DNA of 47,618 nucleotides from Treponema sp. GTDB lineage: Bacteria; Spirochaetota; Spirochaetia; Treponematales; Breznakiellaceae. The position numbers and the translations under genes are program-made. Location: the NCBI GenBank assembly GCA_031279205.1, contig JAITIX010000073.1, positions 1 through 47,618 on the forward strand, written 5' to 3'. Below the pieces are notes generated by a model. It searched no databases. It was not told where the DNA came from and saw only the letters and a list, made by a program, of their open reading frames with translations. Positions 4,931-40,900 of this stretch are shown here, piece after piece (positions within the stretch are counted from its first letter, which is position 1; each line of letters opens with the position of its first letter).

Positions 4931-5014
4931 CTAAAGCCAATGACTGCTTCATTAAGGATAATGAGCCGCTCCCTAAAGCCAATGACTGCTTCATTAAGGA
5001 TAATGAGCCACTCC
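4931..5014. repeat. 42-bp tandem duplication (2 x 21-bp sub-units)
   Basis: Two copies of a 42-bp unit start at 4931 and 4973 and differ at one base (GAGCCGCTCC versus GAGCCACTCC); a third copy is aborted after CTAA. Each 42-mer splits into two related 21-mers, CTAAAGCCAATGAC... and TTAAGGATAATGAG..., which match at about 11 of 21 positions. The period therefore equals that of the three large arrays in this window. It lies upstream of the PRPP synthetase gene and shows no gene of its own. Confidence 0.8.
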
Positions 5015-5139
5015 CTAATGTTAGAGAGGTGTTTTGCTGGCAAGGGAGTTTGTTATGACGCCGGTGTCAGACACGCGGGGGTCTGCGGTTTAAATCACAG
5101 ACACTATGCCAGAATCCGCCTTTCCGCTAGACTTTAGTC

Positions 5140-10907: not shown

Positions 10908-11054
10908 AAGCCACGCCTAGCTGCAGGGAAAATTTGGTTGACAACTAGATGATATAAAACGTGAGTTCGACAATACATCTCATCGAACTCAACGTTGTTT
11001 ACGCTCCATAAACTAGCCGCTTCACGCTCTTTTAAGTCTCTCGTTAAAACTTTT

Positions 11055-11399
11055 GGGTCAATAGTTATAACTTCTGGATCAATAGTTATAACTTCTGGAT
11101 CAATAGTTATAACTTCTGAGTCAATAGTTATAACTTCTAAGTCAATAGTTATAACTTCTGGATCAATAGTTATAACTTCTGGATCAATAGTTATAACTTC
11201 TGGGTCAATAGTTATAACTTCTAAGTCAATAGTTATAACTTCTAGGTCAATAGTTATAACTTCTAAGTCAATAGTTATAACTTCTAAGTCAATAGTTATA
11301 ACTTCTGGATCAATAGTTATAACTTCTAAGTCAATAGTTATAACTTCTGAGTCAATAGTTATAACTTCTGGGTCAATAGTTATAACTTCTGGGTCTATC
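11055..11399. repeat. 21-bp tandem array 1 (16 units, palindrome GTTATAAC)
   Basis: GTTATAAC occurs at 11064 and every 21 bp up to 11379, 16 times without slippage. Most units are AGTTATAACT plus an 11-mer TCTRRRTCAAT; variation is limited to the three R positions, as GGA, GAG, AAG, GGG or AGG. One frame from TTG 10995 to 11417 stays open and reads as heptads SIVITS-X, with X = Gly, Glu, Lys or Arg. The flanks also carry short direct repeats (CTAGCCGC / CTAGCCTC). Twenty-one base pairs equal two helical turns, so all palindromes face one side of the helix. I do not consider the frame a proven gene. Confidence 0.95.
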
Positions 11400-11801
11400 G
11401 TTAGATCCGTAAACTAGCCTCTTTACCATGCGTAAACAGAGAGACGGAACAGGGTGCAAGAGAGTGGCGCCGAGCAGATAAACCGCACTATTCATAGGGT
11501 GAATGATATAAATGTTGAAAACAAGGAGCAGAATAAATATTGACTCGCGAGGCGTTGTGGTTTAAGGTGAGTTGAGATAAGGTCGGGCGGTCGGTATGCA
11601 AGAATGAGCGTGAATGTACGAAGGTTTAGGCTCATTCAGTGAATATGCACCTTAGCTCTACGAAGCGTTAAGGCGCGTATCAAAATAAAGATCAGCGGAA
11701 GATCAAAGGAGGTGTGTTTTTCTCTCAGGATAGAGAGTGTATTTGGTAAAGGGAAGTTTCCTTTAGTTATCATTTTTTATGTACCTTAAGGAGGTATAAA
11801 G
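11400..11801. other. Non-coding leader region before the esterase gene
   Basis: No convincing gene. It contains an inverted repeat GAATGAGC / GCTCATTC (11602-11609 and 11630-11637), an unused strong Shine-Dalgarno-like AAAGGAGGT near 11706, a small hairpin CTCTC...GAGAG (about 11723-11738), and the real ribosome site TAAGGAGGT before TTG 11802. It may be a regulated 5' leader. Confidence 0.4.
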
Positions 11802-24630: not shown

Positions 24631-24786
24631 ACGTTTATCGGGTTTACTATTGAGAATTTACGAAGCGTTGTCAATGTGAAAGGCATGCCATTGCCGGATC
24701 CCGCAATGACGCCAGGTACTAAAGGGTATAGACGTTTCATAAAGGCCTGCGCCTCGACTGTAAAAGCGTTAACCGTGCATGTAGAA

Positions 24787-25135
24787 GTTATAACGGGAGA
24801 CTCAATAGTTATAACTATTGACTCAGAAGTTATAACTATTGACCCAGAAGTTATAACTATTGACTCAAAAGTTATAACTATTGACTCAGAAGTTATAACT
24901 ATTGACCCAGAAGTTATAACGGGAGACTCAAAAGTTATAACTATTGACTCAGAAGTTATAACGGGAGACTCAATAGTTATAACGGGAGACTCAGAAGTTA
25001 TAACGGGAGACTCAGAAGTTATAACGGGAGACTCAAAAGTTATAACTATTGACTCAGAAGTTATAACGGGAGACTCAGAAGTTATAACGGGAGACTCAAA
25101 AGTTATAACTATTGACTCAGAAGTTATAACTTTGG
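24787..25135. repeat. 21-bp tandem array 2 (17 units), inverted relative to array 1
   Basis: GTTATAAC occurs at 24787 and every 21 bp to 25123, 17 times. Units are GTTATAACTATTGAC/GTTATAACGGGAGAC joined to YCAGAA-, YCAAAA- or TCAATA-type ends. On the minus strand many units equal those of array 1 (AGTTATAACT, TCTGAGTCAAT). The minus-strand frame from 25166 to 24540 is open and reads heptads VIT-(S/F/I)-(E/G)-S-(I/P). The plus-strand frame 24613-25191 is open as well. It occupies the gap between the DUF167 and GNAT genes; nothing else is visible there. Confidence 0.95.
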
Positions 25136-29414: not shown

Positions 29415-29799
29415 CCATGTGCATAGAGCAACCACCGTGATTCCGTCTGGCGCGGGGAACACGAGGCGGAGAGAGAGCCGCATGAGGCAGTGAGAGACGC
29501 GCATGACGCGGTGGAGCCGCATGACGTTGTTTCGATGATAGGTCACTGGAATTCATGGTTTGACGGCATTTTCTACATGAGCAATGTCAACAGGTGGGTC
29601 ATGGGACTATCAGCGGGGCCAGATAAGGGATAAGCTCCGGTTGATACAAGGCCCGCCAACGGTGATTAGCGCTCAGTGCTGGGAAGCGTTTGACATGATG
29701 GTGGAGAACATGCGCTACATCTTTTTGTCCCCTTTAACGGAGAGCGATTCCGCTGCTCTGCTTCTTAAAAAGCCCGGCAGCGCCCCCTCAAAGATACTG
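29415..29799. other. Gene-poor stretch, possibly a decayed gene
   Basis: Only an unconvincing 81-residue frame (29584-29829) exists; it has no recognisable motif, no ribosome site, and its last part lies in the IS-like remnant. Purine-rich GAGGCGGAGAGAGAGC and CATGAGG/CATGACG short repeats occur near 29460-29530. I see no functional feature I can name. Confidence 0.3.
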
Positions 29800-30045
29800 G
29801 ATGGAAGCCAGCGGCAAGAGATGGAATAGGAACCTCCTTGTTGACATGGAGATAAAGATACCTTAGTATAACTCTCGTACCCGCGTGGTGCGGGGAATCA
29901 ACGTCTGTGGACAGGATAGCGCTGGCTCTTGGTGATAAGAGTGAAACTATCGTGGAAAGACCGATAACGGAAAGAAGCAGAAACCTTGTAGAGCAAGCCG
30001 AGCAATCGGCCTGAGCTACAAGTCCCGGCCTTTAGGCATGGGGTT
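29800..30045 (+). mobile_element. Decayed IS200/IS605-like remnant, copy 3
   Basis: Homologous to the minus-strand copies at 2430-2704 and 17614-17895. The frame VPAWCGESTSVDRIALALGD, ETIVERPITERSRNLVEQAE is kept relative to copy 2, with mostly silent or conservative changes, showing it once encoded the same protein tail. One base is missing farther upstream (near 29868), and the left hairpin seen in copies 1 and 2 is not clear. The right hairpin CCCGGCCTTTAGGCATGGG lies at 30024-30043. It ends about 25 nt before the Zn-ribbon gene and points toward it. Confidence 0.6.
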
Positions 30046-40413: not shown

Positions 40414-40442
40414 AATATATATGCCTTTAACAGGTTCTACAA
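40414..40442 (-). promoter_or_regulatory. Predicted leaderless promoter of the ABC exporter operon
   Basis: Minus strand: TTGTAG (40442-40437), 17 nt, TATATT (40419-40414), 6 nt, ATG 40407. The -35 is formed at the edge of array 3, so repeat number or content could alter what lies directly upstream of this promoter. Confidence 0.5.
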
Positions 40443-40900
40443 CCGCCAAGCCGCAAACAACAACCGCTAAGCCGTAGACAACAACCGCCAAGCCGCAGAC
40501 AAAAACCGCCAAGCCGCAGACAACAACCGCTAAGCCGTAGACAACAACCGCCAAGCTGCAAACAACAACCGCCAAATCACGGACAACAACCGCCAAGCCG
40601 CAGACAAAAACCGCTAAGCCGCAAACAACAACCGCCAAGCCGCAGACAAAAACCGCTAAATCACAGACAAAAACCGCTAAGCCGCAGACAAAAACCGCTA
40701 AGCCGCGGACAACAACCGCTAAATCATGGACAACAACCGCTAAATGACGGAGAAAAACCGCTAAGCCGCAGACAAAGAAAGCTAAATGACGGAGAAAAAC
40801 CGTTGATGTTCAGGGAAAAAACGATGGAGTATAAACAAAAACTGCTGAATGATGTGGAAAAACAGCTTGAGTATAAACAAAAACGATCAAGAGAATTAGA
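40441..40900. repeat. 21-bp tandem array 3 (about 22 units, decaying to the right)
   Basis: AACCGCYAA recurs every 21 bp from 40441 (40441, 40462, 40483 ... 40756, 40798); the phase remains detectable at 40819, 40840, 40861 and 40882, where units are diverged. The second half of the unit varies among GCCGCAGACAA, GCCGTAGACAA, ATCACGGACAA and ATGACGGAGAA types. The sequence is unrelated to arrays 1 and 2 but has the same period. The minus-strand frame is open over the left part and enters the ABC ATPase gene. Confidence 0.93.

Follow-up and report, generated by a model that had tools for sequence, protein, structure and literature searches.

The window analysed here, a stretch of 47,618 nucleotides from a Treponema sp. 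genome (contig JAITIX010000073.1), carries a 21-bp tandem array, array 1, a solo copy from a class of intergenic tandem arrays that is spread through the whole genome, and the period-21 arrays of this class have their home position directly before genes of an unnamed, expanded family. The unit sequence changes freely and becomes uniform along each array; what is kept is the 21-bp step. The explanation that we favour, at about an even chance of being right, is a DNA-level, helically phased regulatory or recombination array with cassette-wise spread. The following features were located in the window:

4931-5018, no strand: short 42-bp (2 x 21) array, its unit like the CATTAATGAG.. family of L024/L028/L079/L102, a likeness seen by eye only
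10995-11417, plus strand: open frame of 140 codons (SIVITS-X heptads), taken to be non-coding because it starts with TTG, both strands are open and the synonymous positions do not vary
11043-11403, no strand: array 1, 21-bp, solo (no adjacent family gene), unit GTTATAAC-TTCT-RRR-TCAATA, 17.2 units
11064-11386, plus strand: sixteen exact GTTATAAC palindromes at 21-bp steps, by exact match, with starts at 11064, 11085 and so on to 11379
24783-25131, no strand: array 2, GTTATAAC family, inverted, with 16.6 units, flanked by a GNAT gene and the minus-strand gene that follows
29471-29524, no strand: weak 21-bp array of 2.8 copies (TRF), with a possible family-gene remnant just 3'
40439-40884, no strand: array 3, period 21, of unrelated sequence (ACAACCGCCAAGCCGCAGACA), ~30 bp upstream of an ABC transporter gene

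The first-pass annotation had reported sixteen exact copies of GTTATAAC at a strict 21-bp step, which was borne out by TRF (period 21, 17.2 copies, 92% matches, 0% indels) and by an exact search, with 35 occurrences of GTTATAAC in the whole window against 0.44 expected from shuffles. It had also confined all variation to a single codon. This holds for the first 15 units of array 1 from 11064, where the variable columns are three adjacent ones with A or G in each (GGA, GAG, AAG, GGG, AGG), but not for array 2, which keeps the GTTATAAC core constant and varies in both arms, in seven columns other than those of array 1, so that one-codon variation is a property of one array and no rule. Within array 1, the 16th unit has changes at two further bases outside the three A/G columns, and the outermost left unit is degenerate (GTTAAAACTTTTGGG...). 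Arrays 1 and 2 have the exact 21-mers TATTGACTCAGAAGTTATAAC and TATTGACCCAGAAGTTATAAC in common. A directed A/G mutational process, which had also been suggested, is not needed, as transitions together with homogenisation by unequal exchange would suffice.

The 140-codon open frame, together with variation of array 1 in exactly one codon, would suit a translated array of heptads in which one position carries a code, either TALE-like or as a modular peptide. This reading is extremely improbable, and the code proposed at first was given up. The opposite strand of array 1 is likewise open (frame TIDPEVI...), as is to be expected of a 21-bp unit, and the synonymous third positions of V-I-T never vary. 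Moreover, array 2 is variable elsewhere in the unit, related arrays with a period of 22-23 bp are unreadable in frame, and gene-linked arrays stand before a ribosome-binding site (RBS) and a start codon.

Neighbouring genes in the window encode a BadF/ROK-type ATPase, a carboxylesterase and a sigma54 regulator, and the 1.5 kb on either side of arrays 1-3 contain no family gene; the solo arrays of the window stand beside ordinary genes. The possible remnant next to the weak array lies at 29581-29826 on the plus strand (E = 0.017). The family of array 3 is also present at L072 and L093, and in genome G004 it is located upstream of a family gene (L188). In addition, short inverted motifs such as GTGTCAGACAC / TGTCTGGCAC occur at ~5060-5110 of the window and at L103, L101, L080 and L171, dispersed in the intergenic DNA of the genus.

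The genome to which the window belongs is a fragmented MAG of 2.54 Mb in 150 contigs, which break in arrays, and it possesses ~80-90 arrays per Mb with period 21 dominant. TRF on an 867-kb sample returned 135 arrays, of which 84 have periods of 21-24 (49 of 21, 16 of 22, 13 of 23 and 6 of 24) and none a period of 20. At least 69 sampled arrays with three or more copies fall into 37 sequence families, many of them multi-locus, such as TCAGTATACTGA (period 21), GTTCCAACTAGGAAC (24) and CTCACTGAG (22). The CTCACTGAG family, with 105 steps in the genome, combines a constant core with one locus-specific stretch. In the 22-bp arrays at C31, C35, C48, C49, C51 and C52 of G000 (L081, L085, L098, L099, L101, L102), AAATCTCACTGAGTT is constant and a stretch of 6-7 nt is near-uniform per locus and different among loci (105 steps).

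These arrays are intergenic in 62 of 69 cases (about 90%), though 84% of the DNA is coding according to a simple gene caller, and the genes adjoining them show the same orientation as the background. Flanks common to other arrays were found in 32 of 120 only and are mostly unique, which indicates that the array itself is the dispersed unit; arrays as pieces of larger shared repeats were rejected on the same ground. A search for other gene families beside solo arrays yielded mostly ordinary genes, with one similar pair only. No signal of a 7-8 bp sub-periodicity (as 3 x 7/8) was detected within the 21-24 bp units. Perfect arrays of 7- or 8-bp units (CTGGCGTA, ACGACTC, GTGGGTC) were observed at L042 1-118, L081 13852-13963, L091 7207-7324 and L082 363-449, several of them at contig ends and apparently young.

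The gene family was recognised through a gene in an insertion at L108 and was found beside many arrays. Its proteins are ~220-260 aa long and very divergent (mean column identity 34%), with no match above cut-off in Pfam and NCBIfam and none among PDB sequences. An AlphaFold model of one member (mean pLDDT 63.5) suggests, with low confidence, a three-helix N-terminus, a disordered linker and a beta C-terminus, and the best Foldseek hits of this model, Fn3-type cytokine receptors, are not significant (E about 0.08). By alignment search the family is present in 61 of 149 relatives, with up to dozens of candidates per genome, and at least 19 matches, from 49 candidates, belong to the genome of the window.

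The link between arrays and family genes was examined at 30 loci from about 30 genomes, picked by protein score alone. An array precedes the gene in 26 of them, always with period 21 or a multiple and at a distance of about 0-130 bp, and no 21-bp array was found 3' of the family genes at the 30 loci. The exceptions are four loci without an array; L202 is the C149 gene, with two units only, and L212 has 57 bp of room. In the genome of the window, eight of the nine family genes with room have an array 5', against 23 of 596 other genes (3.9%; Fisher p = 1.6e-10), and gene-linked arrays make up 10 of 44 with a period of 21 bp but 0 of 32 with a period of 22-24 bp. The C149 family gene (L042 9345-10085, minus strand) has two GTTATAAC directly 5', at L042 10085-10113, and its GTTATAACTTCTAGGTCAATA unit is identical to a unit of array 1; its orthologues in G001, G003, G004 and others are preceded by arrays of this kind. 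In two single-contig genomes, too, the family genes of full or nearly full length are preceded by arrays (9 and 3 units of 21, and about 4 of 22), which excludes an assembly artefact as the source of the layout.

Several points speak against a phased array or qualify it. In the genome of the window, 34 of the 44 arrays of 21 bp have no adjoining family gene, including all the large ones of the window; one linked array, at L252, has a period of 22; and the constant period could partly be inherited rather than selected. A further locus of G004, L167 (1275-2045, plus strand), carries a family C-terminus and a 21-bp array within a single open frame, possibly the result of a fusion or of gene decay with readthrough of the array.

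The units vary in sequence between genes, and their period stays 21. In one orthologue pair with 96% protein identity, the unit differs throughout the array, whereas the period and the copy number (about 13) are kept. This argues against a gene product that recognises one fixed unit, and favours either a function of the spacing itself or neutral concerted evolution. The array often abuts the ribosome-binding site, and transcription would therefore start within or upstream of it.

The same arrangement was found in lake Bacteroidetes MAGs, where 21-bp arrays precede proteins of similar layout in most inspected cases, and no sequence relation between these proteins and the Treponema family was detected. 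Helical Bacteroidetes proteins with 21-bp arrays before them were noted at L049 (2902-3555, minus strand; FYHGYQKARVIVD end) and L242-L245, and they perhaps represent a second protein family with the same layout.

The initial proposal, by which each palindrome follows the last after two turns and faces the same side of the helix, is still the leading idea. The gene-linked arrays are almost all of period 21 and have dyad-enriched units. Their mean stem is 4.61, against 3.46+-0.13 in shuffles, their folding z is -2.03+-0.28, and the symmetry centre has 0-2 bases in 25 of 41. Palindromes as a universal property of all arrays were rejected: over the 37 families self-complementarity is only mild (mean stem 3.84 versus 3.37-3.45; folding z -0.78+-0.19), and strong self-complementarity is limited to gene-linked arrays. 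Even there, 10 of 27 arrays are not symmetric (z > -1.5), and the hairpin present at L230 has disappeared from the orthologue at L231; a dimer site of specific sequence is thus no general property of these arrays.

Another reading is that transcription of the array yields a tandem-hairpin RNA that partners the protein, in the manner of type III toxin-antitoxin loci. The repeats stand directly upstream of one gene, with gene-specific sequence and the RBS close by, and the general layout is that of toxIN/cptIN (PMC4627078). However, sense and antisense folding energies of gene-linked units do not differ (p = 0.42), and a sense-strand excess of G-U pairs was not found in them. In addition, the units have 21 nt, against pseudoknots of about 36-45 nt, the family proteins show no ribonuclease or toxin domain, and an Rfam scan of the window gave no match. 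An RNA partner is thus very unlikely. We infer that it is the DNA of the array that acts, rather than a peptide and probably rather than an RNA; against RNA stand the centres of 0-2 bases and the absence of a preference for the sense strand.

At least three GTTATAAC at 21-bp steps were found in 6 of 149 genomes in the search of relatives. A collection of about 85,000 species yielded 27 such stretches, with 13-bp spacers that vary by locus; this search was conditioned on the core, and some matches in other phyla may be due to chance. The first base pair beyond the core is complementary at 18 of 28 GTTATAAC loci (p = 1.3e-5), and the outer pairs are less clear. Related arrays within the genus retain GAGTC/GACTC-like spacers while the arms change. 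The records with the same array family are Treponema MAGs, whose isolate names suggest a termite-gut origin. A viral origin was also considered and rejected, with three GTTATAAC stretches found in viral contigs (two contigs) and no match of one family protein in phages; another family protein had no match in plasmids.

Genomes of the same genus, with roughly 85-90% DNA identity at orthologous loci, were compared for turnover, and these loci proved to be entirely different. The first-pass annotation had named absence of array 1 from all relatives, explained by one recent slippage event, as grounds against its reading. At the array 1 locus, array and esterase are both missing from G001; G003 shows a 23-bp array close by, and in G004 the place is taken by different repeats, together with a family gene that has a 21-bp array of its own. 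The array family, however, recurs in other genomes of the taxonomic family. At the locus of array 2, an unrelated 23-bp array fills the same intergenic gap in G004. At L196 (G001), a 22-bp array lies within about 450 bp of DNA missing from G000 and G004, and at L108 (G000) a 21-bp array and a family gene stand where G004 has about 19 bp.

Such turnover is what a neutral or selfish satellite would produce, in which hairpin-prone units grow by slippage and unequal exchange and spread intergenically, while gene and array co-duplicate. This main rival agrees with orthologous loci at which an array is absent, present or replaced by an unrelated one within about 10% divergence, with the intergenic bias without orientation bias, and with the window arrays, whose outer units are degenerate and whose middle is homogeneous; moreover, self-complementarity would promote slippage. 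We still consider it rather unlikely, as it leaves unexplained that independent linked arrays are nearly all of 21 bp and those of 22-24 bp are never linked in the genome of the window, that arrays stand always 5' and never 3' of family genes, and that the layout recurs in a second phylum with other proteins.

The insertion at L108, being a lineage-specific gain of array and gene together, also fits a RAYT-REP-like mobile cassette, in which the gene product or a helper recognises and spreads its cognate array and solo arrays are non-autonomous. Consistent with this, solo and linked GTTATAAC arrays have an identical unit, and, of the nine 21-bp families that occur at several sampled loci, seven include one and only one gene-linked array, although permutation gives weak support (P = 0.07 for seven or more; 0.025 with no family having two). 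Such a cassette is improbable in view of the different arrays in the 96%-identical protein pair, and no Pfam/NCBIfam model, whether of a transposase, a nuclease or anything else, matched the proteins. No clear target-site duplication was seen by eye at the compared insertions, and among the 10 Y1_Tnp matches of the genome of the window an array was nearby in only one of four inspected. These Y1 (IS200/RAYT-type) transposase matches are located on G000 contigs C84, C51, C90, C150, C96, C144, C30 and C4 (L246-L249 and others); several are cut at contig ends, and one is beside a 23-bp array.

According to the phased-array explanation that we prefer, a step of two helical turns would place one dyad (or bend) per unit on the same face, and units so aligned would form a regulatory region, cooperative or curved, that could rapidly gain or lose copies and change in sequence. 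Each family gene would then have its own tunable promoter-leader block, and array and gene could move as one cassette. The solo arrays, as in the window, would be dispersed copies that no longer drive, or never drove, a family gene. More tentatively, and with the balance somewhat against it, a two-part module may be common to Spirochaetes and Bacteroidetes, consisting of a DNA array of strict two-turn units, free in sequence and selected for period, 5' of each member of large, fast-diversifying helical-plus-beta families, with solo arrays as dispersed relatives, and acting via phasing (curvature or cooperative binding) and not via any particular sequence.

An element with conserved spacing and unconserved sequence at dozens of paralogues per genome is unusual, and selection on the period, should it be real, would make this element a clear example of a functional trait that resides in DNA geometry and not in sequence. 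A large, unnamed and apparently uncharacterised gene family was also identified. The arrays help to explain the poor assembly of termite-gut genomes, whose contigs end in arrays, and even if they were neutral, these genomes would still be among the most satellite-rich reported for bacteria.

The repeats themselves are prokaryotic satellites. The module of fixed-period array and expanded gene family is rated as new, and the solo array is not, because the module lacks at least one defining feature each of type III toxin-antitoxin systems, RAYT-REP, iterons, CRISPR and TALE. In open-access text no description of such arrays 5' of a gene family was found, and a prior description is possible. Unlike CRISPR with its unique spacers, the spacers here repeat within each array and are locus-specific, and a variable residue read in a fixed frame, as in TALE-like repeat proteins, was not found.

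Iterons and cooperative operator arrays consist of phased palindromic units at two helical turns, a likeness that the present arrays share. Here, however, many unrelated unit sequences exist per genome, and no Rep or regulator gene was found beside the window array. The strictly iteron-like site first suggested for array 1 finds no support, since its neighbours are the BadF/ROK-type ATPase and the carboxylesterase; no adjacent Rep gene with an origin was found among the window neighbours, the sigma54 regulator included.

Promoter VNTRs and contingency loci are variable tandem repeats 5' of genes, and resemble these arrays in standing 5' of members of an expanded family. They differ from the fixed 21-bp step with free sequence seen here, at dozens of paralogues, in two phyla and with solo arrays by housekeeping genes.

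REP/RAYT systems comprise dispersed intergenic palindromic repeats, as single or paired REPs, with a gene-linked copy per family and a Y1 transposase as partner. Dispersed intergenic palindromes with one linked copy per family are found here as well, but in tandem arrays, and the partner gene does not encode a cognate Y1 (HUH) transposase, the family proteins being without a Y1_Tnp match.

Type III toxin-antitoxin loci (toxIN, cptIN, tenpIN) are alike in having an array directly upstream of one gene and a repeat that differs by locus, the repeat lengths being 36 and 45 nt (PMC4627078). This layout is shown by the gene-linked arrays and not by the window arrays. The searches of Pfam, NCBIfam and PDB sequences revealed no ToxN/CptN/TenpN-type ribonuclease toxin, and a pseudoknot repeat RNA of about 34-45 nt does not correspond to a 21-nt unit without strand bias in folding. 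In addition, many arrays here are solo, and their dyad symmetry shows no strand bias.

Prokaryotic satellites are tandem arrays of at least four units of 10-200 nt that form dispersed families (PMC6749651), and the arrays described here agree with them, having at least four tandem units in this range with internal regularity and related arrays at several loci. In the survey of Subirana & Messeguer 2019 (PMC6749651), the densest bacterium had 23 satellites per Mb, and transposed non-coding long-repeat families were reported only in Leptospira interrogans and Methanocella conradii. In contrast, the present genome has about 80-90 per Mb against at most 23, its arrays share a length class of 21-24 bp, and they have a fixed position 5' of one gene family.
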